Below, in pieces: positions 8,296 to 57,254 of a stretch of 64,000 nt of DNA. Origin of the DNA: Streptomyces camelliae (GTDB lineage Bacteria; Actinomycetota; Actinomycetes; Streptomycetales; Streptomycetaceae); contig NZ_CP115300.1 of the NCBI RefSeq assembly GCF_027625935.1, positions 9,238,001 through 9,302,000 of the forward strand, given 5' to 3'. Made by a program: the position numbers and the translations under genes. The notes under the pieces are model-generated. The model had not been told where the DNA came from and did no database searches. It saw nothing but the letters and a program-made list of their open reading frames with translations. Each line of letters begins with the position of its first letter. Positions within the stretch are counted from its first letter, which is position 1.

Positions 8296-8452
8296 CCCAG
8301 CCCGCCCCGGATGACAGCCCCGGGCCAGGTGCTCCCCACCCACCCAGACGTCAACACAGAGGACGGGCGCGGCGCGGTGGGCATCGGTGGCACGACAACA
8401 GCCGGCAACCCGCGCGAAGCGCAAGCTGGAGGTCGCAGCGCAGACGCGTCGG

Positions 8453-8951: not shown

Positions 8952-9012
8952 CGGGAAGCCATCTGGCCGCGAATGTCACGGTGCATAGTCGTCAACGGGG
9001 TGGCTGCCCGGC

Positions 9013-9570
9013 TCAAATCGTCGGCCGTTCGCCTTCCCTCTGCGGGGTTTCGATCGGGAAGTGGATCGGACTGAGCAGGTATTGCGCCCGCTCAGGGCCG
9101 GGCGAGTTCGCCAGCCTTGGCACGATGGCCGCGCGTAGCTCGGTGATCAGCTCCGTCAGTTCCGCCGGGCTGAGCCAGAGGGCGTGCTGCCGGTAGCCCA
9201 CCTGGTCGGCCACGGGGTCCGCCTCCTCACGGTCGAGATAGGCGTCGAATTCGGCGAGCAGGGCGGTCATGGCGGTGGCGAATGCCTGCCGATGGTCATC
9301 GGGGGTGAGCGTGCGGACCGCCTCGGCTCCGATGACGGCCCGGTCCTGGCGTAGTCGGTAGTGCCGCTCCACTGCCCCACGCACCCTGTGCTCCTCGGCC
9401 ACTTCCAGGATCCCGCCGCTCACCAGCAGATCGATGTGCCGGTAGACGGTGGCCTTGGAGGCTTCCGGGATGCGCGCGCACAGCTGAGCAGTGGTCAGCA
9501 GTCTTCCACCACCCATCGCGTGCACGATCCGCAGCCGGATGGGGTGGGCGAGGAGTTTCAGGGAGTCCAT
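9013..9570 (-). CDS. ArsR-like winged-helix transcriptional regulator
   Basis: About 185 residues. ATG 9570 (start of MDSLKLLAHPIRLRI) follows GAGAAGG at proper spacing, preferred over an upstream TTG. The first 80 residues form a winged helix of the ArsR/HTH_20 type: LLAHPIRLRIVHAMGGG, ATVYRHIDLLVSGGILEV, then HYRL. The C-terminal part is helical (FATAMTALLAEFDAYLDREE) and ends in a variable tail. It is transcribed divergently from the alpha/beta hydrolase, only 36 bp away, so it most likely controls itself and that gene. Confidence 0.8.
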   Translation of the reverse strand: MDSLKLLAHPIRLRIVHAMGGGRLLTTAQLCARIPEASKATVYRHIDLLVSGGILEVAEEHRVRGAVERHYRLRQDRAVIGAEAVRTLTPDDHRQAFATAMTALLAEFDAYLDREEADPVADQVGYRQHALWLSPAELTELITELRAAIVPRLANSPGPERAQYLLSPIHFPIETPQREGERPTI

Positions 9571-37521: not shown

Positions 37522-37829
37522 TGTCGACGGTCAAACAATTCCCCACGATCTGCATGATCGGCGTCAGCCAATTCCCCACCCCTGTGGTCACGACTCCCCA
37601 TGGGGACGCTGACCGTCGATGGTGCCGCTGAACACGCTCGAACTAGCCTGATGTTCCCTGTTTCGGGTGGTTTGCGAAACTTCTAGATCTTCCTTGCGAA
37701 TCGGTCGGGTTCCCCATGGGCATGCCGGTGCCCGGGTTGAGGGTCCTGGCCTCTCGGAGCCGCCGCGGTCCCTCGATCTGCGAGCCGAGAGGCCGACGGA
37801 CGCACCGGATGGCAAGGAGAACATTCACC

Positions 37830-39422: not shown

Positions 39423-39752
39423 ATGAGCGTGATGACCACCGCCCTGCGCGATTCCCTCAAGGCCCTGCGGCTGTCCGGCATGCTCGAAACCCTCGACGCC
39501 CGCCTCACCCAGGCCCAGAAAGGCGAACTCGGACACCTCGACTTCCTTCAGGTCCTCTGTCACGACGAGATCACCCGACGCGAGAGCGTCGCGCTCGAAC
39601 GCCGCCTGCGCAAAGCCAAGTTCGAGCAGCAGGCCACCCTGGAGGGCTTCGACTTCAACGCCTCCCCGAAACTGCCCGCCGCCCAGATCCGCGACCTCGC
39701 GGCCCTGCGCTGGCTCCACTCTGGCGAGTCCGTCATTCTGTTCGGGCCTGTC
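39423..39752 (+). pseudogene. istB: IstB ATPase, N-terminal part (interrupted)
   Basis: ATG 39423 opens the IstB helical domain: ALRDSLKALRLSGMLETLDA, FLQVLCHDEITRRESVALER and LRWLHSGESVILFGPV. The sequence stops after the first residues of the Walker A motif, GPV. The Tn554-like element begins at 39753, and the frame ends 18 codons inside it at 39806. The continuation GVGKT starts at 44245. Confidence 0.9.
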
Positions 39753-39873
39753 GTTATCAACGGGGCCTCATCCGCTCTCTTCTATGTCAATGACGAGCGT
39801 GACTGAGCTGTCGTTGCCTCGTTGTTGAAGTGCTATCAGCGGGAGTTCTACAACGAGATGTGACGGCAGCATA

Positions 39874-41061
39874 GTGGCGTACAGCTTGGCGGTCCGGCCA
39901 TCGAGCGGGCAGCGGACGTGGACCGTGGTCGACGAGAAGTACCGGACGGTGGCACCGGTCGAGGACTGGCTGGAGGCCCACCGGCAGCTGTGGTCACCGA
40001 ACACCGTCCGTGGGTATTCCACCTCGCTGGCCCAGTGGTGGACGTTCCTGGAACAGCGCGGTGAGAGCGCGAAGTGGGCCGATCTCGGAGTCCCAGCCGT
40101 GGCCGGGTTCCTGTCCTGGCTGCGCAACGGCCGCTCCGTCGAGCAGGCCCTGGTCGAACCTGTCGAGGCTCCGGCAGCGGAGACGTTGGAGGCCAGGCTC
40201 GCCGCGCTGATCTCTTTCTACCGCTGGCAGGAGGCAGTCTTCTCCGTGCCGGTCGCGGGCCGGCTGATGCGCGGGGCGCCACGCCGGGCTCCGGCCCGGG
40301 GACTGCTTGCGCACCTGGATACCCGGAACGCGCCCGGCCCGTCCTCGCTGGTCCGCGTCCGCCGACACCGACACCGTGGGCGGCCGCCCCTGCTGCTGCC
40401 GACCGAGATTCAGGCGATCCTGGACGGCTGCGCGAGGCCGGATGCCTCGGTCGGCGAGTGGGCGGGGAACCTGCGGGACCGACTGCTGTTCGCGCTCCTC
40501 GCGGAGACCGGGATGCGCCTGGGCGAGGCCCTCGGATTGCGGATCAGTGACTTTGTCATGGGCCGCGGTGGCACTCCCTACGTCGAGATCGTCCCGCGCG
40601 AGGACAACCCGAACGGGGCGAGGGTGAAGATGATGCGCCCTCGCCGGGTCCATGTCGGCAACGATCTGGAGCGACTGTTCGCCGACTACCTGACCCATCT
40701 GGCCTGCCGAGCTGCCGAGTTGGGCATGGAGATCAGTACGGATTCACCGTTACTGGTGAATCTGACCCGGCCGCCATTGCTGGCCTCGCTGCGGGAGGGG
40801 ACGGTGCGGGACAAGACCGCCGCGCTGCGCAAGAAGCGTCTGGGACCGGCCGGGTGGACGCCGCACTGGTTCCGGCACAGCCACGCGACTGCGCTGCTGC
40901 TGGCTGGAACCCCTGAGTGGGTGGTCTCCCGCCGTCTGGGTCACACACACGTGCAGACCACGCTTGACCTCTATGGCTGGGTCCGTGAGGACGAGGCCCT
41001 GCGGGCAGCAGCGAACTGGAAGTCGTATGCCGCCGGATGGCAGGTGACCGATGGCCGGTGA
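39874..41061 (+). CDS. tnpA: Tyrosine recombinase TnpA of Tn554-like element
   Basis: 395 residues. Core-binding domain at the front (VAPVEDWLEAHRQLWSPNTV, then STSLAQWWTFLEQRG). Catalytic domain shows ETGMRLGEALGLRISDF (first Arg), HWFRHSHATALLLAG (HxxR) and RRLGHTHVQTTLDLYGW (His and the nucleophile Tyr). The start is GTG 39874. It overlaps TnpB by 11 nt, so the two are co-translated. Cuts and joins element ends and target together with TnpB. Confidence 0.92.
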   Translation: MAYSLAVRPSSGQRTWTVVDEKYRTVAPVEDWLEAHRQLWSPNTVRGYSTSLAQWWTFLEQRGESAKWADLGVPAVAGFLSWLRNGRSVEQALVEPVEAPAAETLEARLAALISFYRWQEAVFSVPVAGRLMRGAPRRAPARGLLAHLDTRNAPGPSSLVRVRRHRHRGRPPLLLPTEIQAILDGCARPDASVGEWAGNLRDRLLFALLAETGMRLGEALGLRISDFVMGRGGTPYVEIVPREDNPNGARVKMMRPRRVHVGNDLERLFADYLTHLACRAAELGMEISTDSPLLVNLTRPPLLASLREGTVRDKTAALRKKRLGPAGWTPHWFRHSHATALLLAGTPEWVVSRRLGHTHVQTTLDLYGWVREDEALRAAANWKSYAAGWQVTDGR

Positions 41062-43207
41062 CCGCCACCTCCGCCCCGCCCAGGAAGCTGATCCCGTCTG
41101 GCGGCTCTGGCAGGGGCTGCCGCCCGAGTGGCGTGGGCCGGTGATTGGCCCGGGCATCGCGGACTGGGACAAGTACACGGAGAACGACGACCGCCGCGTG
41201 AACCTGGTCGGTCTGCCGGAGGTGATGATCGCCGAGCTGGCGTGGATGGCCCACTGGCAGGCGATGGACGGCACTCGCTCCTCTGTGCTTGCGACGAACC
41301 AGCTGGCCAACATCGTGCGCCGGGCGATGCGGGAGAACCGCCCCTTCCCTTCCTCCATCCGTCAGATGGACTGGCAGACCGCGTTCGCCCTGCAGGGCTG
41401 GTTCTATGCCACCCGGTGGGGGCGGCTCGCCCCGCCGGACGCCCGAGCCCGGCTGAGGGTCATCTTCCGCTTCGCCCGCCTCGCGCTGATCGCCCGCTGC
41501 CACGACGGCCCCTGCTGGGAACTGGACGACTGGAACCCTCGGTGCGATCCCAGGATCCCGCTCACGGACAGGGAACCGCTGGGGAATTACGGATGCTCAC
41601 CCGGGCATATCACCACCGAGTGGCTGCGGCCCGCGGTCAAGTGGTGCCTGGGAACCCAGCTGGAGGCCGGCACTCTGCGGTGGACCACCGTGAGCCAGCA
41701 ACGCCTGAAGTGCCTGCGGCGCTTCGACAACTGGCTGACCGCCGCCTTCACCGACCCCGCCGAGGCTCTTGGCGACCCTGCGGCCGCCGCCGGGCAGGCA
41801 GCCGCCTTCCGCCGGTGGGTCAGCGACCCCCGCAACCGGATGACCCGCGAGTCAGACAGCCGTCACTTCGACAAGCGCATCCATCCCCGCCAGCTCAACG
41901 ACGACCTACGGGCCGTGGCCGAGCTGTTCGCGTTCGCTGCCGCCGATCCCGCCCAGACCCAGGCCGTGCTGGGCCCCGGCCCCTGGGACCGCGTCACCGA
42001 CACCCACGCTGCCGCCTGGCTGCGACAGGTCACCCGGATCCCGCACCAGCGCGAGCTCAATGACGAGCACTACGTCGATGACCACGCCCTTACCCAGATC
42101 CCGGCCGCGCTGCCCCTGCTTGCTCTGCCTCGCGACCAGCAGATGCCCATCACCCGGGGCGACAGGAGCGAGGTTTTGGCCCACGGTTTCGACGACCCGC
42201 AGGCTATGCGCATGATCCTGCTGCAGGTCCTCACCGGCCGACGGTCCAGCGAGATCCGCACCTGTCGATTCGACTGCCTCTCCGCGGTCCCCGGCGCAAC
42301 AGTCGACGCCGCCGAGAACGAGCAGATCGCCCGCTTCCACTACGCCCAAAGCAAGATCGACATCGCGCCGGACAACATCCTCGTCGACCGGGAAGTCGTC
42401 GCTGTGATCGAAGAACAGCAACAGTGGGTCCGGGAGTCCTTCCCCGGCATCACTCCGTCCCACCTGTTCCTGCAGCGAACCGGAAACCGCCAGGGCGACA
42501 AGCCCTACCCATCGGGGACCTACACCTTCATGCTCCGCGAGTTCAGCAAGGTCGTGCAGATCACCGACAGCAAGGGCAGGCCCGTCAGCCTCAGCCACAC
42601 CCACCGCTTCCGCCACACGAAACTGACCCGGCTTGCCGAACTCGGCCTGCCTGTCCACGTGTTGATGCGCTATGCCGGACATGCCACCCCGTCCATGACG
42701 ATGCACTACATCGCCGCCCGGCAGGAGCATGCCGAGCAGGCGTTCTTGGCCACCACCAAGCTCAAGGCCGACGGCACCCGCATCGTCTTCTCCCACGACG
42801 ACCACGACAGCCTCCACCTGTTCAACCGCGCCGACCGGTTCCTGCCCCACGGCTGGTGCCTGCTGCCGCCCCTGCAGACCTGCGACAAGGGAAACGCCTG
42901 CCTGACCTGCTCGGTCTTCGTCACCGACGCCTCCCACCAACCCGCCCTAGAACGTCAACTCAGCGAGACGCAAGCACTAATCGACCGCGCTGACGCCACC
43001 TTCCAGGAGCGTCACGGTCACCCGATGCCCGAGGACAACGTCTGGCTCCTCCAGCGCCGGGCCGAGCACCATGCGTTGACCCGGCTGCTGGACACCATCC
43101 GGGCCAAGCCCGGCCGCGCGGTCCAGGGCGCCGGCTGCGGCACCACCCTCACCGGCCCCGTCCCCGTCGCCCTCGATCTCGACCACCACCGAAGGATCCG
43201 GCCGTGA
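41051..43207 (+). CDS. tnpB: Large tyrosine recombinase TnpB of Tn554-like element
   Basis: 718 residues, the size of Tn554 TnpB-type recombinases. The long front (WRLWQGLPPEWRGPVIG, MDWQTAFALQGWFYATRWG) is followed by a catalytic core with LTGRRSSEIRTCRFDCL (Arg), SHTHRFRHTKLTRLAELG (HxxR) and MRYAGHATPSMTMHYIAARQ (His, Tyr). Near the end LQTCDKGNACLTCSVF is a Cys-rich, possibly zinc-binding stretch, followed by a coiled coil. Start overlaps tnpA, end overlaps tnpC by ATGA-like GTGA. Confidence 0.92.
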   Translation: MAGDRHLRPAQEADPVWRLWQGLPPEWRGPVIGPGIADWDKYTENDDRRVNLVGLPEVMIAELAWMAHWQAMDGTRSSVLATNQLANIVRRAMRENRPFPSSIRQMDWQTAFALQGWFYATRWGRLAPPDARARLRVIFRFARLALIARCHDGPCWELDDWNPRCDPRIPLTDREPLGNYGCSPGHITTEWLRPAVKWCLGTQLEAGTLRWTTVSQQRLKCLRRFDNWLTAAFTDPAEALGDPAAAAGQAAAFRRWVSDPRNRMTRESDSRHFDKRIHPRQLNDDLRAVAELFAFAAADPAQTQAVLGPGPWDRVTDTHAAAWLRQVTRIPHQRELNDEHYVDDHALTQIPAALPLLALPRDQQMPITRGDRSEVLAHGFDDPQAMRMILLQVLTGRRSSEIRTCRFDCLSAVPGATVDAAENEQIARFHYAQSKIDIAPDNILVDREVVAVIEEQQQWVRESFPGITPSHLFLQRTGNRQGDKPYPSGTYTFMLREFSKVVQITDSKGRPVSLSHTHRFRHTKLTRLAELGLPVHVLMRYAGHATPSMTMHYIAARQEHAEQAFLATTKLKADGTRIVFSHDDHDSLHLFNRADRFLPHGWCLLPPLQTCDKGNACLTCSVFVTDASHQPALERQLSETQALIDRADATFQERHGHPMPEDNVWLLQRRAEHHALTRLLDTIRAKPGRAVQGAGCGTTLTGPVPVALDLDHHRRIRP

Positions 43208-43632
43208 CCGATGCCCACATCAAGCGCACCCAAGCACTCACCGCCGCGGCGAAGGCAAAGTCGCAGGCCAAGACTCAAGCCGCCGAACAGGCCATCCGGC
43301 GGCTGATCAAGCGCGGCGAGGCGATCACTTTCCAGGCCGTCCAGCGCGAGGCCGGCGTGTCCCACGCCTTCCTTTACAACCACCCTGACCTGCGCGGACG
43401 CATCGAACGTCTGCGGGCCCAGTCCCGGCCGATCCCCGCACCAACCAGGCCGGCAGACGCAGAGAACACGCTCGTTCTGGCACTGACCAGCCAGATCACC
43501 CGGCTGAAGCAGCAACACCGCCAGGAGGTCCAGGCTCTGCGGGATGCGCTGGAGCAGGCCCACGGCGAGAACCTCGATCTCCGCCGCGAGCTCGACCGCC
43601 GCGGCTTGCCTGGACAGGTCCAGGCAAACTGA
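43204..43632 (+). CDS. tnpC: DUF6262 / TnpC-like small transposition protein
   Basis: 142 residues starting GTG 43204 over the tnpB stop. Front half: AAKAKSQAKTQAAEQAIRRL then ITFQAVQREAGVSHAFLYNH, a helix-turn-helix; back half: a coiled coil (ITRLKQQHRQEVQALRDALE). This matches TnpC/DUF6262 proteins that aid the paired recombinases of Tn554-type elements in orientation or efficiency. Confidence 0.85.
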   Translation: MTDAHIKRTQALTAAAKAKSQAKTQAAEQAIRRLIKRGEAITFQAVQREAGVSHAFLYNHPDLRGRIERLRAQSRPIPAPTRPADAENTLVLALTSQITRLKQQHRQEVQALRDALEQAHGENLDLRRELDRRGLPGQVQAN

Positions 43633-43708
43633 AATGCTCTTGAATACCCCGTGTCAGCAGGGCTAGCGTTCTTGCACCTGCCAACACCGGCACCTTCAGG
43701 AAGTCCAC

Positions 43709-44119
43709 ATGCCTCGCCGGACACCGGGCGAGATCAGGTCCCAGCTGCCGCTGCGGGACACCAGGCACTTCAGGCGAACCGTCATCAGAGGACTGTCGGC
43801 TTCCACGAACCGGCAAATCGCCCAGTTCGAGCGCGAGCGACGCCTACCCAGAGGCGATATCGCGCTTGCCTTCCGCCGCTGGGCTCAGCGAGCCGGGCGC
43901 CGTCGCAACGCAGAAGAGTGGCACTACGGATACTCCGACGTCGCCACCGGACACATCCGCACGCTACTCGAAGTTGCCAGTTGCAACCTCCGTCCCCGCG
44001 CTCGAAGGGAACTACAGGCGGCGTTGGCGCCGATCGACGCACGCGTTCTGAAGCGCACCGTCAACGATCCATTCGCTCCACAGCACCTGCCCTGGTGGCA
44101 ACGGCGCATCGAGGTCTGA
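43709..44119 (+). CDS. Passenger protein of Tn554-like element
   Basis: 136 residues, ATG 43709 after CAGGAAG. Very basic and helical (RDTRHFRRTVIRGLSASTNR, LAFRRWAQRAGRRRNAEEWH, ASCNLRPRARRELQAALAPI) with a tryptophan end HLPWWQRRIEV. It lies between tnpC and the right end of the element, the usual passenger slot. I do not recognise a function; positive charge suggests nucleic-acid binding. Confidence 0.65.
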   Translation: MPRRTPGEIRSQLPLRDTRHFRRTVIRGLSASTNRQIAQFERERRLPRGDIALAFRRWAQRAGRRRNAEEWHYGYSDVATGHIRTLLEVASCNLRPRARRELQAALAPIDARVLKRTVNDPFAPQHLPWWQRRIEV

Positions 44120-44240
44120 CCCGGGCCCGACACCAGGGTGGGGCCAGAGATCGCTCGTGCAGCCACCTGTCCTTGCTTCTATGTCTTCGTCGTCGCTACA
44201 AGGGCGATCGCCCGAACCGAGAACTTCATCCCCAGATAAC

Positions 44241-44688
44241 TGTCGGCGTCGGGAAGACGCACGTCGCCCAGGCCCTCGGCCACCAGGCCGTCCGCCAGGG
44301 CGCGAACGTCCGCTTCGCCAAGACCAGCCGCATCCTCGCCGAGCTCGCCGGCGGCCACGCGGACCGCACCTGGGACAGGCGCATGCGCGAACTCATCCGC
44401 CCCGACCTGCTCATCCTCGACGACTTCGCCATGCGCCAGCTGTCCGCCGCCCAGGCCGACGACCTCTACGAACTCGTCTCCGAGCGGCAGGGCCGGTCCC
44501 TGATCATCACCAGCAACAGGGCGCCCAGCGACTGGTATCCCCTCTTCCCCAACCCGGTCGTCGCCGAGTCGCTGCTGGACCGGCTGATCAACTCCAGCCA
44601 CCAGGTCATCATGAACGGCCCCAGCTACCGGCCCAACAAGCGGCCCAAGGGCCCCACCGAGAAGCCGGGCACACCCGCAAACGGCTGA
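44241..44688 (+). pseudogene. istB: IstB ATPase, C-terminal part (interrupted)
   Basis: Resumes exactly where the N-terminal part stopped: GVGKTHVAQALGHQAVRQGA (rest of Walker A), LLILDDFAMRQLSAAQADDL (Walker B) and SLIITSNRAPSDWYPLFPNP (sensor 1), VIMNGPSYRPNKR at the end. With the insert removed, IstB would be about 258 residues, normal for the family. As it stands, the ATPase cannot be made in one piece, so the IS21-like element should be immobile unless the Tn554-like element leaves. Confidence 0.92.
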
Positions 44689-48019: not shown

Positions 48020-49087
48020 TCAAACCGTCGGAGGCCGGCTGGTGCGTGCAATGAACGCGGCACGTCCTTCACCCGGCGCACTGCCCCCTGTCTGCGCACT
48101 TGCCGCGGAGACCCAGCAGCGCAGTGACAGGTCGGCCAAGCTCTCGATGAAGTACCGGTCCGCAAGTACGGAGCCCGGAGGATGCACCTCCCGGGCGCTC
48201 ATCCATTCCACCAGCAGCCCGGCAGCGCCCTGCGCCTGGCGGGGCTCGTTCATGGGAGCCCGGGTTTGCCGGCAGCGCGTTGCCCGGGTCCACATTTGAT
48301 CGATGTGATTGAGGACTTCGTCGCGAAGGGCGGTCAGTTCCTCGAAGCTGATGCGAACGAGCTTGTCGAGCCGTTCCTCGGGGGAGGTTTCCTGGTAGCG
48401 GGCCATCTGCGAGGCGTGGCAGACGGCCGCGTAATCCCATACGGCCAGGCAGTCCTCTCCGCCGTCGCAGTCGAGGTCCAGGGCGGCGGCCAGGTCGGCC
48501 ATGAGCGCATGGTCGTCTTCTGGAAGTGCCAGCCTTTCCAGGCCGATCAGGACCGCCAATAGGCGGGCGTTCACCTCTGCGCGCGGCGCGTCCGCGAGGT
48601 CCGGCAGACGCCGGAGGTTGATTCGCATCTGGCGCACTGCCCTGCCGTTCTCGGACAGCGTGATTTTGGCCCTCGCCTCGGCGTTCTCGTACTCGGCGTC
48701 CATCTCAGCAGCCCATTGCGGTGGCACTGCGGCGGCCTCTCGCGCCATGCGATCCTCATGTGTGAAGCGGCGGTCGAAGTACGTGCGCGCGAGAGCGACT
48801 TTCAGTGCGCTTTCCGGGATGTCCGCGCCACTGAAGAAGGCAAGCAGAGCCAGGTCGTCGTACGAGCGCCCGGGACTGGTGTGCCGGGCCAAGGCACAGA
48901 CCAGGTCGCCGGTGCCGGGCGGGTAGACCGCCTCGGTTCCCGCGCCCCCCACGCGCTGGATGTCGGGTCGCGGGATCAGGCCGTGGCGGCGCCAGCGTTC
49001 TAGCTGGTACGCGCTCACCGGGTGGCCGGACGACGCGGCCAGAGACATCAGCTTGAGATCGGCACGACTGGGTGCACTTCGTGACAT
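48020..49087 (-). CDS. MerR-like HTH protein of unknown function
   Basis: 355 residues from ATG 49087. Near residue 20-60 a MerR-type helix-turn-helix and wing is visible (VSAYQLERWRRHGLIPRPDI, then YPPGTGDLVCALAR). The remaining 290 residues are helical (DLALLAFFSGADIPESALKV, LLAVLIGLERLALPEDDHAL, ISFEELTALRDEVLNHIDQM) with no known enzyme motif. Much longer than normal MerR regulators, so probably a regulator with its own large sensor or an HTH-fused effector. It follows the ParA-like gene by 94 nt on the same strand and could form an operon with it, next to the CRISPR array. Confidence 0.6.
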   Translation of the reverse strand: MSRSAPSRADLKLMSLAASSGHPVSAYQLERWRRHGLIPRPDIQRVGGAGTEAVYPPGTGDLVCALARHTSPGRSYDDLALLAFFSGADIPESALKVALARTYFDRRFTHEDRMAREAAAVPPQWAAEMDAEYENAEARAKITLSENGRAVRQMRINLRRLPDLADAPRAEVNARLLAVLIGLERLALPEDDHALMADLAAALDLDCDGGEDCLAVWDYAAVCHASQMARYQETSPEERLDKLVRISFEELTALRDEVLNHIDQMWTRATRCRQTRAPMNEPRQAQGAAGLLVEWMSAREVHPPGSVLADRYFIESLADLSLRCWVSAASAQTGGSAPGEGRAAFIARTSRPPTV

Positions 49088-49181: not shown

Positions 49182-50114
49182 CTAGCACCAGCGGTCAGTG
49201 ATGGCCTTCGCGGCCTGTTCGACGCCGGGATCCAGTGGGGAATTGGCTAGGGCTTCGGTGTCGTGTGTGCGGTGGTGATGCGTGGCGAGGTCGTAGTCGC
49301 CGACGCGGATGTGTCCCAGGAGAGGGATGCCGGCGGCGGCCATGTCGACCTCGACGAGGCGACTAAAACCTGACACGGGTTCCGCAGCGGGTTGCTTCCG
49401 GCTGCCGGTGATCATCCCGAGGAATGCGGTCGGACGGTGGTAGAGGAACTTCAGGTGCCGCTCGCGCAGGAGCGCCGCGCTCTGCTCCGGCGTGAGGGGG
49501 CGGTCGATGCGTTCCTCCGGTACGGCGCCGTGGCCAAGGGTTTCGGCGACGGGAACGCCGTTGCTCGCGGCGAGCACCACGAAGTGGTCCACAAGATCGC
49601 GTCGCGGCCAAGTCGGTTGGCCCATCAGTACGAGGGCGTCGAAATGGCGGCGTCCCAGCTGCAGGGCGTCCTGCAGTGGGCCTTCGTCAAGGGAGGGACG
49701 ACGAGGATCGGTCGGCGGGTGTGACCACGGCGTGTGCTGCTCCACCAGCAGACCGCCCCGCCCGCGGTCCCTGATGTCGGCCCGCAGCAGGGTGCTGCGG
49801 TGCCCAGGCCACGCCCGCTGCCGCTCTTCGGCTGCCTTGCGTTCCCTGGCCTTGCGCGAGTACAGCCGCAGGTCGGATCCATACGGCTTGTACTTGTGCA
49901 CGAGAAGAACCCGCAGGCCCTGCTGCGCCCATGCGGACGCGATCTGCACCGTGAGCGTGCCCAGTTCGCATTGCTCATCGAAAAGGAACTGCACCACCCG
50001 GCCGTGCCGCGAAGCCGGCACCATGCGGCGACGGACCTGCGTGTAGCGCACACCAGCGGCGTCCTGAGTCTTGCGGGCACGCGCCTTCGGACCGCTTGCA
50101 CCGGATTTGGTCAT
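49182..50114 (-). CDS. ParA/MinD-like protein with degenerate Walker A
   Basis: 310 residues from ATG 50114. The region VVQFLFDEQCELGTLTVQIA, then SAWAQQGLRVLLVHKYKP has the layout of the ParA/MinD deviant Walker A (normally KGGVGKTT before NLA and RVLLIDxDP), but GGVGKT is replaced by EQCELG and the Asp of the switch by HKYKP. Later DALVLMGQPTWPRRDLVDHF and VSGFSRLVEVDMAAAGIPLLG match the ParA fold's Walker B side and GxxIPxxxxV end. It is thus a ParA-fold protein that probably does not bind or cleave ATP. First of two minus-strand genes beside the CRISPR array. Confidence 0.5.
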   Translation of the reverse strand: MTKSGASGPKARARKTQDAAGVRYTQVRRRMVPASRHGRVVQFLFDEQCELGTLTVQIASAWAQQGLRVLLVHKYKPYGSDLRLYSRKARERKAAEERQRAWPGHRSTLLRADIRDRGRGGLLVEQHTPWSHPPTDPRRPSLDEGPLQDALQLGRRHFDALVLMGQPTWPRRDLVDHFVVLAASNGVPVAETLGHGAVPEERIDRPLTPEQSAALLRERHLKFLYHRPTAFLGMITGSRKQPAAEPVSGFSRLVEVDMAAAGIPLLGHIRVGDYDLATHHHRTHDTEALANSPLDPGVEQAAKAITDRWC

Positions 50115-50484
50115 GATGATCGATCTCCGCACCAGGGCCCCCGCTGCCCCGCAGAGTCGATAACGCGCGGGCATGAAAGAAAGGTGCGGGACCATCCCTG
50201 AACCCCACGGGCCCGGTGTCCTTCGCCTGCTGCACGCCGACGCGGGGCACCGGACACAGGCTCACGGCGTGCGCAACCTGCCGCGACCACAACGATAGTG
50301 CTGCCGCATCCCAGCCGGCCTGCGCAACGCCGTACGCCCTGCACGGGGCAGGGGTAGATGGTGTGGTGTCCCGCATCGCTCGGGGCGCTGAGTGGGCGGC
50401 TCGGCCGGGCCCGTACTCTCATCCGGCGGACGTCCTTCGGGGCGATGTCGTGTGAGCTGGGGACGGGGTAGAGGGATGTGCGTG
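50115..50484. other. Spacer upstream of the CRISPR array
   Basis: No well-supported gene. A 79-codon plus-strand frame (50216-50455) with a CxxC pair (LTACATCRDHND) is possible but has no ribosome site. The 3' part, next to the first repeat, would be the array leader if the array is read rightward; it is not A/T-rich. Confidence 0.35.
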
Positions 50485-50623: not shown

Positions 50624-51377
50624 GTGGCGGTCGCCCTCCGGGGCGACCGAGGATCGCAACGTCCCGGCCGGGTGGATCAAGACATCCGCGATGATGTGGC
50701 GGTCGCCCTCCGGAGCGACCGAGGATCGCAACGACCGCAAGGGAGCCTGATCAGTGCAGCAGGTGCCCTGTGGCGGTCGCCATTCGGGACGACCGAGGAT
50801 CACAGCGCCTCGACCACGCGGCCGTTGGGCGGCTTCGACCCCGTGGCGGTCGCTCTCCGGAGCGGCCGAGGATCGCAACTCGGGGGAGCAGATGGCGGCG
50901 ACCGACGCGAACGTTTGTGGCGGTCGACCTCCGGGGCGACCGAGGATCGCAACGACGATCAGGAACTCGCTGACCTCATCAAGGCCAAGCTGTGGCGGTC
51001 GCTCTTCGGTGCGGCCGAGGATCGCAACACGACCGAGAGCAGGACCATGCGCACAGGGGAGTGGTGGCGTTCGCCCTCCGGGCGACCGAGGATCGAAACG
51101 CGCTGTACCCGGTCCGTCCCGCCCGCCCGCAGGTAGTGGCGGTCACCCTCCGGGGCGACCGAGGATCGCAACTACTTCGAGAACGCGCCGGGCCACGGCT
51201 TCAAGGCCGGGTGGCGGTCGCCCTCTGGGGCGACCGAGGATCGCAACGTCCGGGACTACGCCGCGCAGTGGACACACCCCCTGGAGTGGCGGTCGCCCTC
51301 CGGGGCGACCGAGGATCGCAACCGGGGCGTGGAGTAGCGCAGGGACGCCGAGGACAACGTGGCGGTCGCCCTCCCGG
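50624..51377 (+). CRISPR. CRISPR array, ten repeats plus a truncated eleventh, no adjacent cas
   Basis: Repeats are 37 nt (one of 36): they start GTGGC, contain GGTCGCCC-TCCG-GGGCGACC (perfect 8-bp stem, 4-nt loop) and end GAGGATCGCAAC. Repeat starts: 50624, 50696, 50770, 50843, 50917, 50992, 51064, 51136, 51211, 51286; the last, at 51359, breaks off after about 18 nt. Spacers are 35, 37, 36, 37, 38, 35, 36, 38, 38 and 36 nt and all differ. The 3' handle (ATCGCAAC, once ATCGAAAC) resembles the ATTGAAAC end of type I/III repeats and sets the direction rightward, with the cut repeat at the trailing end. Repeats 2-9 carry substitutions, several still able to pair. Confidence 0.9.
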
Positions 51378-51751
51378 GAGGGAGGAGAGGGGCGGAACGG
51401 CAGCCCTGCCCTCACGTGGTCGAGGGACGCGCACGCCCCCAGGAGGACACCCGCGCACCGCGCCCCTAGCATGAAATTGCTGTAGGTTCGCATTCGGAGT
51501 GTCCCGTTCCGTTGCAACGACCTGGGTGTTGTCGGGTTGTCTCAGTAATGGGCCACGCCGTCGCGTCTCACAGTCCTGGCCCACCGCATGGTTACAGCCA
51601 CTGCCAGCGGCGGCGCCTGGGTGGGACCGAATCGACGGTGGCGGCGCACGGGTGGTCGCGCACGGCGGAGGAGGCACTCAGCGTCGCCCGAGAACGCTTC
51701 GCCGTTCGCGTACGAGTTCTTCAAACAGCAATGCCCTGAGGTTCGGCGGTG
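51378..51751. other. Spacer between CRISPR array and RNAP-like gene
   Basis: No frame with convincing codon bias or recognisable product on either strand. The part at 51460-51500 is locally A/T-richer (AGCATGAAATTGCTGTAGG) and could hold a promoter. It contains the 3' ends of both the array and the converging RNAP-like operon, but I see no strong terminator hairpin. Confidence 0.4.
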
Positions 51752-54700
51752 TCACCTTCGCCCTGGCTCATCCAGCCGGTGTTCGCCAGTGCGCTCGGCG
51801 AGCCATGTGGGGTCGCACAGGAGCAAGCCGTCGTCTGGCTTGAGGGGCAACGAGCCGGTGGTCAGTGCCGCGTCGGCGATGTGGTTGCCGAGATCCCCGC
51901 AGGGCAGATCGAAGAAGGAGTTCGGCGTCGTGGGTTGGCGTGGGGAAGTTGCCCTGCGCAGAGTGTCGACCGTCAGCAGGCCGGTCGCCTCCCTGATCGC
52001 CTCGGTGGTCAGGACGCTGAAGATACGTACCGTCTCGCCCAGATTCTTCCAACCGACAAGGTCAAGTAGCCCGGGCTGCACCTGCAGGGCTGGAACCTCG
52101 GCCGCCTGAACACGGAGGGCCACCATTGGCCAGGGCCCGTGGGGCAAGGCGACCAGGATCAGGGCCTGGTTGCACACCGCGTCGAGCAGCCGCATGGCTT
52201 CCTCGGCATGTTCCTTGATCATCGCCCGCGCTTCCCACCCTTGCCGGGCCGTAGCGGTGGAGATGAGCGCGTGTACGAGCAACGGCTCGACGAGATGAAG
52301 AGCCAGGTCTCGGGCCAGGAAGACGGTGTCCGGGTCGGGAACGGAATCTTTGTCGCCGGAGTTCGCCAGCTTGGCGATCACCAGTCGGGCGCGGGCGCTG
52401 TAGTCCACGGGCCGACGCAGGAAGCCGTCACGCAGTGTGCCGGTGGAGCTCGGGCGGGCCATGAGCGAGTCCGCGAGGCTGACGAGCTTTCTCCCGTTGT
52501 CGTCCCGTGTCGGTTCCGGCCGGCGGCCGTTGTCCAGCAGCGCGCTGACCTTGTGTTGGAGTAGGCGGCGTGCGCCCATCAGCACGTCCAAGGGGGCGCC
52601 GAGGTCGTCCAGGCGGCGGAGTTGGGCGGACTTGGAGAGCACCGCGCTGTAGAGGCTGTTGAGGTCGCTCCCGAGCGTCCGATGATCCTCGATGACGTGT
52701 GGTCGTAGATCCGGAGGCAGGACCGGCAGCAGCCGAAAGGTGACGGTGTCCGGGGACAGGCCGGCCGGGATAGCACCGGTGGCTTGACGTAGAAGGATCT
52801 TCACCGCCTGTCCGCCCGTCACGGCTGTGGCTTGGGCTCGACCGGAGGTGTCGCCCCACTCCTTGACACTCAGCAACTGCCCCGTGGTCAGCGCCGTGGG
52901 GCCTGGTTCGGTGACCAGGACCAGCTCGCAGTCGGCGATCTGTTGGAGCTCCTGCTCGGTCAGCTGCAGCGAGCGTGCGAGCCGGGCGCCGGCCGGGCCG
53001 CTGAGGCACCAGCTGTGGACCACCGGCACGGGGAGTTCGATGTGGCCGAACCGACGGCCGCGCTCGTGAGGCATGGTCAGCGTGCGTCCGCAAGCGCCGC
53101 ATGTCGCGCCGGCGTCCCAGGTGCGGCGGCGCTCCCCGCAGACGCACTCGTCCTCGCGGTCCGGGCCGAAGATCTGCTGGCAGAAGAGCCCGCCCGGCCA
53201 CGGGCGTCTGGTCCGAACGTTGTAGAAGACTTCGCTCACCACTTCGCCGTGCGAGAGGCGCGCCACGTCGGCTTCGGCCATCGGACGCAGGCCGATCCGA
53301 TCGGCTTCGAGCCGCGGCATGATGCGGGCAGCGCGCAGTGTCAGGTCGAGCCGACGGACGGCGTGGGCCGGCGAGTCGAGCAGAGCGATGGACCGGTCGC
53401 GGGGTGGGCCGAGACCTCTGCCGCCCTTCTCCAGTGAGGTGCGCAGGTCGTTGCGCCAGTGCGGACAGTCCCCACGCGGTCCGTAGATCTCCATCGCCAG
53501 GTGTCGGGCTCCGTGCGTGACGAGCCATTGGAACTCCTTGGGCTCGATCATCTGGGCGCTGTCGCTGGCTCCGCTTGCCAGCGGCTGGTGGAGGACCAAG
53601 GAGTAGCCGCCTGTGGACCAGGCGCCGGTATCGGGCCCGGCTAGGCCGTGGGCGGCGAGGCGGATCCGGATGGTGTGGCTGGCTTCGCCCGGTGGCGGGG
53701 CCCAGGGGTGGTCGGGCGCCACGACCAGGTCCGGTTCGTCGAGACTGCCCGCGAGGCGCCTGAGCGAGGGTCCGCCCGCGAGACCGCATACGACTGCGAA
53801 GGCGCCGGACTCGTCGTCCAGCGTGTCGCCGTGCTGCACTGGCTGGTCGACAGCGACGGTGACGGTGATGCGCGTCCCGGACCCGCCACCCCGCAGGTGT
53901 CGACCGGGTGTTGCCGGGATCGCGTCGGTCGCCAGGGCGCCGCTGATCCGCTGCGCCAGGACGTGGCCGGGCAGCCGTCCGGGCATCATTAGGGACCTGT
54001 TCCGCAGCGCCCTCCACAGCGCCGCGTCACCGAAGAGGGCGTACAGCAGGCGCTCCTCGGGGGTGCGTCGCGTTTCCTCATCCGCTACGGGCGAGGCAGC
54101 CCCCACCAGGAGCTGTCCGGGTCGCACTGGCCTACCCGGGGTGATCAGGCCGTACTTGTCAAGGCTCGATGCCTGCTCGGCGGACACGGTCGGCGGTCTT
54201 GAGGTGAGGACGGCGCCGTCGGGCAGCGTCGTGCTCAGCTGGACCAGTGTGGGGATCGACAGCGCATCCGGGTCTGCCAGCCGCTCGTTGACCAGCGCCG
54301 CTCTGCCCTGCAGGCTCGGTGAGGCGACGACGGTGCACTGCGCGGACACCGCACCGCGGCTCACCAGATCGCCGAGTGCGAGATCCCGCACGGTCACGCG
54401 TTGCAGCCGGCTCCAGAACCCGCGCGTGTACTCGGAACTGCTCCGATACTCGGAGCCGGTCAAAGGCCGCCGTCTGAGGGGATGAGTCTGCCCGGAGGGC
54501 CCTGCGATCATGTCCTGCCGCAGTTCATCGGTGAACCGGGCGTACCCGTTGCGGTACCCCAGCAGGGTGCGGCGCAGCAGGGCTTCGAGGATGGGCCGGA
54601 GCTGGGTCCGGCCGTCGTAGCGAAGTGTGTCCTTTAGGCCGAGGAAACGGTCCCTCTGGGACCACCGGTGCCGCGGCTCCGCGTTCGCACTCGTCCAGAA

Positions 54701-55567
54701 GACGGTGGGGGTGTCGAAGACGATCTCTCCGTTCCGTTCCCGCAGGCCGATGGGGAGCGGCAGATGCATCAGCAGGTGGCGCGCCCGCTTGATCGGCCCC
54801 TGCTCGTCCTCGAGGACGAGGTCCAGGGTGAGCGGTACCAGGAAGTCGTCGGGGCCGACTGCGCCTCGTCGCACCTGCCAGAGGTTCGCCAGGGTCACCC
54901 TGGTCCGGCAGGTGGGGCAGACGACGTAGTCGACGGACCCGGTGCAGGTGGGGTCCGGGCAGGTGGGTGTCGTTTCGGTGATCCTGCCGTGCCCCGAGAC
55001 GGCCGTGCAGGGGCAGGTGTGGTCGTAGCGTCTGGCGAGGCCGGTCGTCCGGCCGCAGGAGCAGCTCCATTCACCGAGCTCGTACCCGGCCAGTCGCAGT
55101 CCGGTGGCGGAGGTGTCGGTGAAGAATCGCCCCAGAACCTTGTGCAGGCCGGTGTCGAGCCGCTCGTGCGGGAGCCGGTCGACCTGGAGGAACTCGGCGA
55201 ACTCGTGGCAGTGCTGCTGCTGGACATGCATGTTCTCGGGGGTGCCGAAGGGGCGCTGCTCCAGGAGGAGTACCTGCACATACCTGATCAGATCGGGTCG
55301 GCGCATCAGGGAGTACGTGCGCGCGATGTGCAGATCGGCCCGCAGCGCGTTGACACCGAACATGCGCTGTCGCAGATGCCGAAACCTCTCGTCGAGGATC
55401 GTGTCGTGGAGGTCGTCGCCGCGTCCCTCGTCCGCCGCCAGCCGGATGGCGTTCTCAATGGTGTAAGGCGTGGGGCACTGACGCCAGTTCCGCACATGGT
55501 CCGAGAGATCGGCACGGGTGCGCCCGCTGGACACCAGCGCACTGACCTCGTCGCGAATGGACCGCAT
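51752..55567 (-). CDS. RNA polymerase beta-beta'-like fusion protein, active-site residues lost
   Basis: 1271 residues from ATG 55567. Residues 1-160 are unlike any polymerase. C169xC171/C185xC187 and C203/C208/C217xxC220 look like two zinc sites. Residues ~410-640 follow beta: DKYGLITPGRPVRPGQLLVG, TPEERLLYALFGD, and TVAVDQPVQHGDT where beta has AVKRRIQPGDK. Residues ~680-700 recall the beta C-terminus; from 760 on it follows the beta' start: SHGEVVSEVFYNVRT, GLFCQQIFGP, zinc C808xC810/C823xxC826, FGHIELPVPVVHSW, DLGAPLDVLMGARRLLQHKV with ALLDNGRR (clamp helices), RRPVDYSARARLVI. The catalytic DFDGD is KNLGE (1174-1178); the beta lysines are D574 and T582. It ends before bridge helix and trigger loop, so no polymerase activity is expected. 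Starts 3 nt after the STAND gene. Confidence 0.85.
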   Translation of the reverse strand: MRSIRDEVSALVSSGRTRADLSDHVRNWRQCPTPYTIENAIRLAADEGRGDDLHDTILDERFRHLRQRMFGVNALRADLHIARTYSLMRRPDLIRYVQVLLLEQRPFGTPENMHVQQQHCHEFAEFLQVDRLPHERLDTGLHKVLGRFFTDTSATGLRLAGYELGEWSCSCGRTTGLARRYDHTCPCTAVSGHGRITETTPTCPDPTCTGSVDYVVCPTCRTRVTLANLWQVRRGAVGPDDFLVPLTLDLVLEDEQGPIKRARHLLMHLPLPIGLRERNGEIVFDTPTVFWTSANAEPRHRWSQRDRFLGLKDTLRYDGRTQLRPILEALLRRTLLGYRNGYARFTDELRQDMIAGPSGQTHPLRRRPLTGSEYRSSSEYTRGFWSRLQRVTVRDLALGDLVSRGAVSAQCTVVASPSLQGRAALVNERLADPDALSIPTLVQLSTTLPDGAVLTSRPPTVSAEQASSLDKYGLITPGRPVRPGQLLVGAASPVADEETRRTPEERLLYALFGDAALWRALRNRSLMMPGRLPGHVLAQRISGALATDAIPATPGRHLRGGGSGTRITVTVAVDQPVQHGDTLDDESGAFAVVCGLAGGPSLRRLAGSLDEPDLVVAPDHPWAPPPGEASHTIRIRLAAHGLAGPDTGAWSTGGYSLVLHQPLASGASDSAQMIEPKEFQWLVTHGARHLAMEIYGPRGDCPHWRNDLRTSLEKGGRGLGPPRDRSIALLDSPAHAVRRLDLTLRAARIMPRLEADRIGLRPMAEADVARLSHGEVVSEVFYNVRTRRPWPGGLFCQQIFGPDREDECVCGERRRTWDAGATCGACGRTLTMPHERGRRFGHIELPVPVVHSWCLSGPAGARLARSLQLTEQELQQIADCELVLVTEPGPTALTTGQLLSVKEWGDTSGRAQATAVTGGQAVKILLRQATGAIPAGLSPDTVTFRLLPVLPPDLRPHVIEDHRTLGSDLNSLYSAVLSKSAQLRRLDDLGAPLDVLMGARRLLQHKVSALLDNGRRPEPTRDDNGRKLVSLADSLMARPSSTGTLRDGFLRRPVDYSARARLVIAKLANSGDKDSVPDPDTVFLARDLALHLVEPLLVHALISTATARQGWEARAMIKEHAEEAMRLLDAVCNQALILVALPHGPWPMVALRVQAAEVPALQVQPGLLDLVGWKNLGETVRIFSVLTTEAIREATGLLTVDTLRRATSPRQPTTPNSFFDLPCGDLGNHIADAALTTGSLPLKPDDGLLLCDPTWLAERTGEHRLDEPGRR

Positions 55568-55570
55568 CCG

Positions 55571-56941
55571 CTATCCGATCCCGGCGCGGCCCCGGAAGTA
55601 CTGCCGGAACCGGTCGTGGCAGAAGCTGTACTCCTCGCTGCCCCTGTGCCCCTGCACGCCTGGCACGGCCCGCCGGTGAACAAGTAGGAAGCGGTGGATC
55701 TCCCGCAGGATGGTGTCGAAGTTCAGCCAGGTCAGCCCTTCGACCAGGTTGTACAGGTCGAACGCGGAGAGCGTGCCGGCTTCCAGGAGGAACCCCAGGA
55801 TCTCGACGTGCTCGGTACGGTGGGCGCTGCGGTTGAGCTGCTCCAACTGCTGGTCCAGGTAGCTTTCGAGGCCGGTGGGGGTGCGGTCGACGTTGTCGCG
55901 GGTGAGCATGCCGACGGCCGCGTCCTCCACCAGGAAGCGCACATAAAAAGGGTCGCCCGCGGAGACACGGTGCATCTCGGCGACGAAGTCGGCATCCTTT
56001 GCCAGTCCCGCCGCCGCACCGCCCGCCATCCGGAGCAGGTCCACGAGCGCGGCCTCGTCCAGGCCCTCCAACCGCAGGTGCAGGCCCAGGTCCGCAGGGG
56101 ACAGCGCGATGTCGCTGAGACAGGACCGATCGCCCTGGGCGCGGCCCGAGAGTACGAGCACCAAGCCGTGCGGCAGCTGCCCCGGCAGCAGGGTACGGAG
56201 CTGGTCCGGTGGATCCAGTTCGTCGACGGCGTCCAGTACGACGACCGTCGGCTTCTGCGGCGGACGGGTCATGAGGCCGCGGAACTGCCGCTCCAGGTTC
56301 TTCAGCCCTCCGCCGCGCACATGGGCAGGGTCCAACTGCTCGCAGAGGCACTCCAGTACGTCCTCGGGGCTGGTGGGGTCGAAACCGCCGCCCCTGCGCC
56401 GGTACGCCTGGCTGATGAAGTGGTAGCGGAACTCGGGGTTCTGCCTGACCAGATCCGCGAGGAGGGAGGTCTTGCCGTATCCCGAGAGCGCCTCCACGAA
56501 GACGTAGCCGGAGGCGCGATCCCGTATGAACTCCTTGATCCGTGTCCTCTCGGCCTGCCGCCCCGCGAACAACTGCGTGTGTTTCTCGATGAGATCACGG
56601 AAGAAGTCCCGTGTCGGGGGCTCCTGCCACGTACCTTGGCGGCCGGCTTCCACCGCCTGGTCCCACAGGTGCAGCAGCGGATCCGGATCCATTTTCAGGG
56701 CATTCGCCAGCGCGATCACGGTTGCCCTGGTCGGAATGTTCGGTCCGTTGAGTGCCTTGCTGACGGTGGTGTGCCCCAGGCCCGTCAGCCTTTCCAGGGC
56801 GAGCATCTTGACGCCGCGCGCATCCCGCCGATCCCGTAAGCGCTGTTGGAGCTGAGCCAACACGGCATCGCCGTCGGGTTTGCCCTCCAGGGATCGCACC
56901 GGACCTCCTTGACGGTCAGTCATATCGATGAGCGATCCCAT
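55571..56941 (-). CDS. XRE-HTH/NACHT STAND NTPase
   Basis: About 456 residues from ATG 56941 (MGSLID); ATG 56923 (MTDRQGG) is also possible. Residues ~25-90 are a Cro/XRE helix-turn-helix (LQQRLRDRRDARGVKMLALE, TGLGHTTVSKALNGPNIP, ALANALKMDPDPLL). A STAND ATPase follows: ERTRIKEFIRD then Walker A EALSGYGKTSLL near 150-161, Walker B PTVVVLDAVDELDP near 232-245, LVLVLSGRAQGD sensor, and a winged-helix part ending YSFCHDRFRQYFRG. Unlike most STAND proteins it has no C-terminal repeat sensor; instead the RNAP-like gene follows after 3 nt on the same strand, so that protein may provide the sensing or effector part. Divergent from a small membrane protein. Confidence 0.88.
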   Translation of the reverse strand: MGSLIDMTDRQGGPVRSLEGKPDGDAVLAQLQQRLRDRRDARGVKMLALERLTGLGHTTVSKALNGPNIPTRATVIALANALKMDPDPLLHLWDQAVEAGRQGTWQEPPTRDFFRDLIEKHTQLFAGRQAERTRIKEFIRDRASGYVFVEALSGYGKTSLLADLVRQNPEFRYHFISQAYRRRGGGFDPTSPEDVLECLCEQLDPAHVRGGGLKNLERQFRGLMTRPPQKPTVVVLDAVDELDPPDQLRTLLPGQLPHGLVLVLSGRAQGDRSCLSDIALSPADLGLHLRLEGLDEAALVDLLRMAGGAAAGLAKDADFVAEMHRVSAGDPFYVRFLVEDAAVGMLTRDNVDRTPTGLESYLDQQLEQLNRSAHRTEHVEILGFLLEAGTLSAFDLYNLVEGLTWLNFDTILREIHRFLLVHRRAVPGVQGHRGSEEYSFCHDRFRQYFRGRAGIG

Positions 56942-57029
56942 ACAGATTCGTTCGCCCGTACGCCAGCGTACGGGGACCTCGGCATCTTCGTTCCCGGACA
57001 ATAGCCCTTCAGGGAACGGAGAAAGACCC

Positions 57030-57254
57030 ATGTTCGTCTCACTGGCCTCGCCGCCCGTGCGCGCCCTCACTGTCATTGCCGCGGTCCTCACTGCGGCCCT
57101 TCTCGCACTCCTGGCCGCGATCTCCGCAGGGTTCCTCGCCCGTTGGGACGGAGCGTCCCTCCCCGGCGCCCTCCTTCATGCAGGCACAGTTTTCGGCGCC
57201 ACCCTCACCCTGCTCTGCAGCCTCATCGCACTCGGGGTCGCCACGCTGACCTGA
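57030..57254 (+). CDS. Small two-span membrane protein
   Basis: 74 residues; ATG 57030 follows GGAACGGAGAAAG. Two hydrophobic helices (VRALTVIAAVLTAALLALLA and LHAGTVFGATLTLLCSLIAL) separated by FLARWDGASLP. No enzyme motif. Divergent from the STAND/RNAP-like operon, about 90 bp away, so it shares its promoter region; a small membrane protein beside a STAND gene could be an effector or accessory part, but small membrane proteins of this kind also occur alone in streptomycetes. Confidence 0.65.
   Translation: MFVSLASPPVRALTVIAAVLTAALLALLAAISAGFLARWDGASLPGALLHAGTVFGATLTLLCSLIALGVATLT

Follow-up and report, generated by a model that had tools for sequence, protein, structure and literature searches.

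The window analysed here, a 64,000-nucleotide stretch of the Streptomyces camelliae genome, contains two genes on the reverse strand that encode an RNA polymerase (RNAP)-like protein, hereafter the mimic, and a STAND/NACHT-type NTPase. The mimic gene is one uninterrupted ORF with an ATG start and no internal stop, and encodes the 1271-residue protein P0001. The NTPase gene, which was overlooked in the original prediction, lies upstream, with 3 bases between its stop codon and the ATG of the mimic; its own start codon is uncertain, as 442-residue homologues begin about 60 codons into the ORF. Features of the locus are as follows.

55571..57091, reverse strand: XRE-HTH plus STAND/NACHT-type NTPase (ORF calls, Pfam, homologue alignment)
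51752..55567, reverse strand: RNAP beta-beta' mimic, 1271 amino acids (ORF, Pfam, phmmer, profile alignment)
55238..55567, reverse strand: helical N-terminal domain of the mimic, residues 1-110 (no RNAP match in the searches made)
54377..55228, reverse strand: predicted beta1 (protrusion) domain, residues 114-397
54908..55063, reverse strand: Cys-rich insertion, residues 169-220 (conserved cysteines in alignment)
53846..54256, reverse strand: predicted beta flap domain, residues 438-574
53798..53824, reverse strand: sites of the lost lysines beta K1065 (T582) and K1073 (F590), residues 582-590 (alignment)
51965..53302, reverse strand: beta'-like part, residues 756-1201 (profile and structure alignment)
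53090..53146, reverse strand: beta' zinc ribbon, CxC-12-CxxC, residues 808-826 (alignment)
52535..52669, reverse strand: beta' clamp helices, the coiled coil on which sigma docks in RNAP, residues 967-1011 (alignment)
52034..52054, reverse strand: GWKNLGE replacing NADFDGD, residues 1172-1178 (alignment)

The mimic is a single-chain homologue of RNAP beta and beta' that lacks the catalytic residues. Pfam matches are to RNA_pol_Rpb1_1 (2e-32) and, under its cut-off, Rpb2_6 (9.5e-4), and the best phmmer match to PDB beta' chains has an E value of 3e-50. Profile alignments place residues 422-715 onto host beta 745-1120 (E 5e-18) and residues 756-1201 onto host beta' 10-564 (E 2e-55), in agreement with the original description of a fused beta-beta'-like protein. 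Membership by descent is indicated by significant similarity in sequence and fold to both subunits. The gene is single-copy in the genome, where three further matches correspond to the ordinary rpoC/rpoB locus, and its product scores far below RpoB/RpoC cut-offs (rpoC_TIGR, 189.5 vs 963.5 bits). As in fusions of cellular RpoB and RpoC (NCBIfam PRK09603 and PRK14844), beta precedes beta' in one chain. The mimic shares with cellular RNAP the beta' zinc ribbon, lid, clamp helices, and switch-2 strand as well as beta1, flap, and C-terminal beta regions, but lacks the Mg ligands, the catalytic lysines, most of beta 1-744, and beta' past about 577, and has added helical and Cys-rich parts.

Folds of the beta1, flap, and beta' clamp/zinc-ribbon regions are predicted from structure models (residues 1-735, mean pLDDT 80.3, dropping mostly under 50 across residues 645-735, and pTM 0.79; residues 72-1271, mean pLDDT 72 and pTM 0.50). 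Among the structures that the models match are those of beta1 determined together with Mfd and CarD and of the flap determined together with phage gp33 and gp39. The models also align over the double-psi beta-barrel regions, a comparison made at the level of whole regions. Foldseek gives the beta half low TM-scores (query-normalised 0.28 in its first match) because separate domains match. The N-terminus is assigned to beta on the basis of the structure model; from sequence alone the assignment is weak (probability 7%), and its match to RpoB, found among 145 proteins of which one is RpoB, has an E value of 2e-8. The zinc finger has the exact spacing originally claimed (C808-x-C810-12-C823-xx-C826), with each cysteine present in all 42 members covering it. 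In the Cys-rich insertion, C169, C171, C185, C187, C208, C217, and C220 are invariant in 44 rows and C203 is conserved in at least 90%, a pattern that points to probable zinc sites.

Catalytic positions are lost across the family. GWKNLGE stands where beta' has NADFDGD, with K1174, L1176, and E1178 at the places of D460, D462, and D464 as first reported. In the 42 of 44 members in which the Mg triad was counted (fragments P0137 and P0144 were left out of the catalytic columns), D462 is always replaced (L in 40, V in one, I in one), whereas D occurs at the D460 column in 10 and at the D464 column in one. P0135 has D at both outer columns but V at D462. The DxDGD motif is found in none of the 42 members covering the site, the window's own included. 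Lysine is present at the K1065 column in 0 of 44 aligned members and at the K1073 column in one (P0125), and never at both. The original prediction was thus right about the loss of both lysines, but its register was off by eight residues; the positions are T582 and F590, not D574 and T582. Neither is this a decaying gene. The mimic has 42 homologues in databases, its codons are biased (GC of 0.71, 0.52, and 0.84 by position), and dN/dS is 0.37 relative to a homologue of 74% identity, all of which bears out the earlier view of an open, maintained pseudoenzyme whose relatives share the loss of DFDGD; no homologue keeps that motif and both lysines.

The end of the chain is more complex than first described. 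The sequence alignment, whose last stretch is of low confidence, ends at E. coli beta' 577 and leaves the bridge helix and trigger loop outside, consistent with the claim that the chain stops before them, but the structure alignment differs, placing the last residues on the C-terminal segment of beta' (about 1364-1376 of E. coli). A profile test of the tail (residues 1195-1271) against RpoC gave no match. Because of where the structure alignment places the tail, the apparent early end may be an internal deletion.

Surfaces of the mimic are unequally preserved. Identity to host RNAP was computed for the family consensus and, as control, for E. coli RNAP; consensus figures are used because fragments leave per-member means undefined in many regions. 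Identity is 0.60 in the clamp helices (control 0.91), 0.55 in the lid (0.77), 0.52 in the zinc ribbon (0.68), and 0.50 in the distal flap (0.70). It falls to 0.25 in the beta' barrel (0.72), 0.21 in the beta lysine barrel (0.72), and 0.10 in the catalytic loop (0.85). The proximal flap is less well kept (0.33 vs 0.64), and switch 2/rudder, which is not a phage target known to us, is as well kept as some docking parts (0.47 vs 0.82). The consensus comparison suggests that the surfaces gripped by transcription factors, namely flap, zinc ribbon, lid, and clamp helices, are the best preserved in the mimic; its catalytic centre is lost. In RNAP, the RNA exit path runs along lid, zinc ribbon, and flap. 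The flap is described as a point on which phage factors converge (PMC3985653).

The partner's NTPase core contains the Walker A sequence GYGKTS and an LDAxDE motif, and residues G154, G156-S159, D237, D240, and E241 are invariant in 30 aligned sequences. No C-terminal sensor repeats are found in the NTPase family; chains end right after the core, just past a winged-helix-like segment (with weak HTH_TANC1 matches in relatives), which supports a sensor in trans. Thirteen of 65 NTPase homologues carry N-terminal enzyme modules (TIR, SIR2, trypsin-like, metallophosphatase (phosphoesterase), or PNP; nine of these were checked by hmmscan and all were confirmed) and 22 carry an HTH. One SIR2-NTPase, P0103, continues into a segment that matches mimic-family residues 2-111 (E 1e-31). 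It is a single metagenomic protein with a frame disturbance and the sole case that pairs a mimic with an enzyme effector. Other mimic partners seen have an HTH, an uncharacterised N-terminus (P0069 and P0094), or no extra N-terminal domain (P0073 and P0079). In P0103 the counterpart of mimic residues 1-110 directly follows the SIR2-STAND part, and we infer that this helical domain links the mimic to the NTPase.

Mimic and NTPase are paired and have diverged together. Their genes are adjacent in all four loci read as DNA, with gaps of 3 nt in the window, in L024, and in plasmid L039 and of 0 nt in G013. By eye, 14 of 42 mimic homologues have a longest-contig size identical to that of an NTPase homologue among the 65 rows, a comparison by which the remaining 28 are not judgeable, and mimic P0019 and NTPase P0073 have neighbouring locus tags. 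Distances within the two families correlate at 0.956 over 16 pairs, a set without P0137/P0075 and the truncated L039 pair, and 0 of 5000 permutations were as high. The spread among Streptomyces and related bacteria is patchy, with occurrence in 2 of 131 genomes of the genus, its own included, and likewise in 2 of 131 genomes of the family.

We see an even chance that the mimic serves as sensor in a predicted anti-phage system of two genes, where it would be a decoy of host RNAP. Phage proteins that seize host RNAP, such as antiterminators, sigma appropriators, or co-activators on the flap or RNA-exit side, would bind the mimic, and its N-terminal helical domain would relay binding to the NTPase. 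The NTPase would then assemble on ATP and fire its N-terminal module, which is TIR, SIR2, or protease in relatives and XRE-HTH in the window. We hold with somewhat less than even confidence the broader picture of a putative bacterial immunity that guards transcription, in which a dead RNAP copy serves as bait coupled to a STAND switch whose killers are interchangeable, such that a phage protein seizing RNAP also seizes the tripwire.

Relations to known systems are partial. Single-chain and jumbo-phage RNAPs (phiKZ, AR9, and YonO types) are, like the mimic, distant fused or split beta/beta' proteins, but those enzymes are catalytically active and have retained the Mg motif. Plant NLRs have integrated decoys and Panoptes reportedly uses decoy nucleotides in immunity; both present host bait on which the parasite's weapon reveals itself, as proposed here, where the bait would be a mimic of a whole transcription machine. 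Avs (AVAST) and other STAND/NACHT anti-phage proteins have the same NTPase core and, as in relatives of the window NTPase, N-terminal TIR, SIR2, or protease, but their sensor repeats are in the same chain, whereas here C-terminal repeats are absent and an RNAP-like protein, encoded separately, is the candidate sensor. Avs5, for example, is described as a SIR2-STAND protein whose C-terminal repeat domain is essential (PMC12931631). PADLOC gives weak matches to the window NTPase (best 2.3e-5) and no match to the mimic, and with PADLOC/NCBIfam the G013 NTPase weakly matches Avs1b. EAD10 Gre/GreB-C-PIN proteins are predicted to counter invaders by dealing with hijacked RNAP, acting on the real RNAP through a Gre domain (Kaur et al. 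2021; PMC8195603), whereas the mimic is itself RNAP-like.

The mimic could instead be the effector, which upon NTPase activation would shut down or redirect transcription by sequestering sigma, NusA/NusG-type factors, or nascent RNA. Clamp helices, lid, zinc ribbon, and distal flap, the parts kept best, bind host factors too, and most partners seen beside a mimic carry an HTH alone or none of the known enzyme domains, so that such loci may lack an effector. But 13 of 65 NTPase homologues bring their own enzyme effectors, in P0103 followed by the start of a mimic, and clamp-helix columns that contact sigma vary (R at the R275 column in 10 and E at the E295 column in 13 of 42 members covering the region), and we consider this role unlikely. 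Doubtful to a greater degree is a housekeeping or regulatory device, in which an HTH-NTPase transcription regulator that is not immune uses the pseudo-core. An XRE-HTH on the window NTPase and on a third of homologues fits such a device, but the HTH is not universal (P0073, whose locus tag is next to the one of mimic P0019, begins directly with the NTPase domain), there are versions with TIR, SIR2, or protease, and occurrence in genus and family is sparse. Less probable again is a mimic that detects not phage proteins but nucleic acid, such as nascent viral RNA or an RNA-DNA hybrid, through its exit-channel face and extra Cys-rich sites. Retention of lid, zinc ribbon, and flap and of eight conserved N-terminal cysteines would suit this role, but the hybrid-holding barrels are the most eroded parts and several DNA-contact positions, among them K334 and R346, are altered. 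A decayed or still active polymerase copy has next to no probability: the sequence is plainly RNAP-derived and P0135 has two of three Mg ligands, but the replacement of D462, the absence of paired lysines, an alignment without bridge helix or trigger loop, the open frames, and the dN/dS all argue against it.

If the decoy reading is true, bacteria can directly sense when phages take over host transcription, as they do almost universally, and the mimic is a ready bait for finding unknown phage proteins that bind RNAP, in actinophages first. We know of no other RNAP pseudoenzyme family; this would be the first, and would parallel, in prokaryotes, the integrated decoys of plant immune receptors. 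Multisubunit RNAP is among life's most conserved enzymes, and a maintained, catalytically dead family with persisting docking surfaces would be a natural dissection of the other uses of the fold.

A CRISPR array adjoins the mimic gene. CRISPR as part of the system was rejected, as Cas1 and Cse1, the two Cas families searched, are absent from the S. camelliae genome, array-like repeats are present neither in L024 nor around the G013 copy, and megablast of the array against phage records gave no match. A viral origin of the mimic was likewise rejected; searches of IMG/VR with three alignments gave no relative, and phage-record matches are short pieces of beta'-like proteins, the annotated ones being RNAP. 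No phage link is seen, as viral contigs and phage records yielded no copy of the mimic family. Matches in PHROGs are to two families without assigned function. Among the best 20 of 24 matches in a plasmid search with a TIR-type NTPase, only the already-known Streptomyces plasmid matches over the NTPase core, and the remaining matches listed are TIR domains.

The RNA polymerase (RNAP) beta-beta'-like gene of the window and its partner are arranged as follows:

51752-55567, minus strand: ORF of the single-chain beta-beta'-like protein P0001 (the mimic), with an ATG start, 1271 codons and no stop inside
55571-57091, minus strand, upstream of the mimic: gene of the partner NTPase, an XRE-type HTH joined to an NTPase of the STAND/NACHT kind (Pfam)

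The stop-free ORF bears out the earlier reading of a frame open over 3.8 kb. The mimic gene is single copy, located ∼26 kb from the end of a 9.32-Mb contig (genome 9.6 Mb), and an ordinary rpoB-rpoC locus is present elsewhere in the genome. Pfam, PDB-sequence and NCBIfam searches with the mimic all return RNAP subunits, with NCBIfam scores far under the RpoC cut-off, and profile alignment places a beta part (422-715) before a beta' part (756-1201). Clostridial and Vibrio chains lead the PDB matches. In the same search, the mimic is no closer to actinobacterial RpoC than to other RpoC, indicating that it did not arise by recent duplication of host genes.

Both catalytic centers are erased. In alignments to E. 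coli K-12 RpoB and RpoC, which serve as numbering references, beta' D460/D462/D464 correspond to K1174/L1176/E1178 of the mimic, precisely the replacements originally predicted. Beta K1065/K1073 correspond to T582/F590; the original prediction was right that the lysines are absent but its register was eight residues off. Two protein searches yielded 42 homologues (20 + 22), which among the matches listed carry either a hypothetical annotation or none that names a working polymerase; one listed homologue names Rpb1/Rpb2 domains and one UniRef name is "DNA-directed RNA polymerase subunit". Together with the mimic and the copy in a second genome with the pair (G013), they form an alignment of 44 members. 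Loss of DFDGD is shared across the family, as DxDGD occurs in none of the 42 members that reach the catalytic loop and D462 is lost in all of them, with Asp retained at D460 in ten and at D464 in one (P0135). Lysine is found in 0 of 44 members at K1065 and in 1 of 44 at K1073. Glycine G463 is retained in 42 members and a novel tryptophan, W1173, is present in 40 of 42, indicating that the catalytic loop was rebuilt and not just worn. Protein P0135 has Asp at two of three Mg-ligand positions and Val at D462, and possibly represents an early stage of ligand loss.

Identity between the family consensus and host RNAP varies among regions (control in parentheses, E. coli versus host). It is 0.60 (0.91) in the clamp helices, 0.55 (0.77) in the lid, 0.52 (0.68) in the beta' zinc ribbon, 0.50 (0.70) in the distal flap, 0.47 (0.82) in the rudder/switch 2, 0.44 (0.60) in beta' 99-143, 0.41 (0.62) in the N-terminal zipper, 0.33 (0.64) in the proximal flap, 0.31 (0.79) in the beta C-terminal clamp, 0.25 (0.72) in the beta' barrel, 0.21 (0.72) in the beta barrel with the lysine positions, 0.17 (0.41) in beta' 144-235, and 0.10 (0.85) in the catalytic loop. 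The order of conservation is therefore reversed, with the center worst kept in the mimic and among the best kept in working RNAP. Better-conserved regions are on the RNA-exit and sigma-docking side, but a simple docking-surface reading is countered by a moderately kept proximal flap, a fairly well-kept switch 2, and variable sigma-contact columns.

Relative to its 74% identical counterpart in S. musisoli, the mimic has a dN/dS of 0.37 and the partner NTPase one of 0.24; these values come from the S. musisoli pair alone, as comparisons with more distant members are near saturation and were left out. With GC by codon position of 0.71/0.52/0.84 in the mimic, they uphold the prediction of a maintained pseudoenzyme over a decayed gene. 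That the mimic is a maintained RNAP homologue lacking catalytic residues is close to certain.

The mimic and NTPase very likely constitute a two-gene unit. The intergenic gap is 3 nt in the window, in S. musisoli, and in a Streptomyces plasmid copy, and 0 in G013. By eye, 14 of 42 mimic homologues match one of 65 listed NTPase homologues by an identical length of the longest contig; sharing a contig is not equivalent to gene adjacency (P0016 is on a whole chromosome). These mimic/NTPase pairs are P0002/P0060, P0004/P0062, P0008/P0068, P0012/P0065, P0014/P0066, P0016/P0069, P0019/P0073, P0020/P0076, P0127/P0113, P0132/P0109, P0137/P0075, P0139/P0079, P0142/P0094, and P0143/P0090. Locus tags of P0019 and P0073 are neighbors (ACFV0O_28700 and ACFV0O_28705). 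Mimic and NTPase distances correlate over 16 pairs (r 0.956; 0 of 5000 permutations as high), although shared descent alone would also raise r. In the plasmid copy (NZ_CP109439.1, 1.56 Mb, linear; mimic at 8001-9356 of locus L039), the mimic is broken off after 451 codons and followed by integrase/transposase-like ORFs, and the NTPase is intact.

N-terminal modules of the NTPases are exchangeable. Precomputed Pfam annotations assign an HTH to 22 of 65 homologues and an enzyme-type domain to 13 (six TIR/SEFIR, three SIR2, two trypsin-like, one calcineurin-type phosphoesterase, and one PNP); all nine of the 13 that were rescanned were confirmed. In P0087, P0092, and P0094, an uncharacterized N-terminal domain of ∼200 residues replaces the HTH or known effector. 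C-terminal repeats past the NTPase core were found in 0 of 30 aligned NTPases. In P0103, a metagenomic SIR2-NTPase, the NTPase frame is lost near the end and followed by a stretch matching mimic family residues 2-111 (E 1e-31), 104 residues of which align with P0139 at 50% identity, so the start of a mimic follows the SIR2-NTPase there. We consider this junction the key hint that the mimic is constant while the effector varies, as expected of a sensor.

The beta flap and adjoining surfaces are a convergence point of phage regulators. According to PMC3985653, the contact between sigma region 4 and the flap is exploited by phages, P7 binds the beta' N-terminus and flap, and lambda N, lambda Q, and P23-45 gp39 contact the flap, which is termed a nexus of regulation there. 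Structures of flap-gp33 and flap-gp39 are listed in PMC4496699. We propose a decoy sensor because the mimic displays phage-targeted surfaces, should be unable to transcribe, and is tied to a STAND NTPase without its own sensor. A phage takeover protein would bind the mimic, which via residues 1-110 would release or drive the NTPase, and the NTPase would then assemble and fire its N-terminal module. A role of the pair in conflict or defense is likely, and the mimic being the sensor is rather plausible; that it is a decoy for phage RNAP-takeover proteins is tentative, at best evenly balanced. The weakest point of the proposal is the HTH on the window's NTPase.

To our knowledge, a conserved RNAP family without catalytic residues is undescribed. 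We found no description of a mimic-NTPase system in the open-access literature; PADLOC includes no mimic model and yields only weak matches for the NTPases. NTP-dependent conflict systems are the subject of two papers in eLife; in the passages found, RNAP is unmentioned in PMC7159879 and the mimic system is not described in PMC8195603. The latter presents a system of the Gre-PIN type, predicted to target RNAP that has been hijacked, but this differs in kind from the mimic-NTPase pair, which we file as a variant of STAND conflict systems.

The pair is rare. The mimic query is positive in 2 of 101 genomes of the genus. The NTPase query is positive in two genomes each among 131 from the genus, 131 from the family, and 100 from the phylum (samples overlap). 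Positive genomes are the same in every survey, this one and G013, and both have both genes; the G013 copy is 75 kb from the start of its contig. Named mimic homologues are from Streptomyces, Kitasatospora, Saccharothrix, and Plantactinospora, and no relatives were found in viral contigs.

Adjoining the mimic gene is a CRISPR-like array (50624-51398; ten ∼37-nt repeats and one degenerate, spaced 71-75 nt). The genome lacks Cas1 and Cse1, and no phage match to the array was found. Beyond it, ORFs 48020-49087 and 49182-50195 (minus strand) have no Pfam, PADLOC, or NCBIfam match. An IS21-type istA-istB unit (37716-44688) is apparently split by tyrosine-recombinase ORFs 39874-41061 and 41051-43207; IstB positions 3-101 match the first istB ORF, and positions 101-235 match the ORF past the recombinases.
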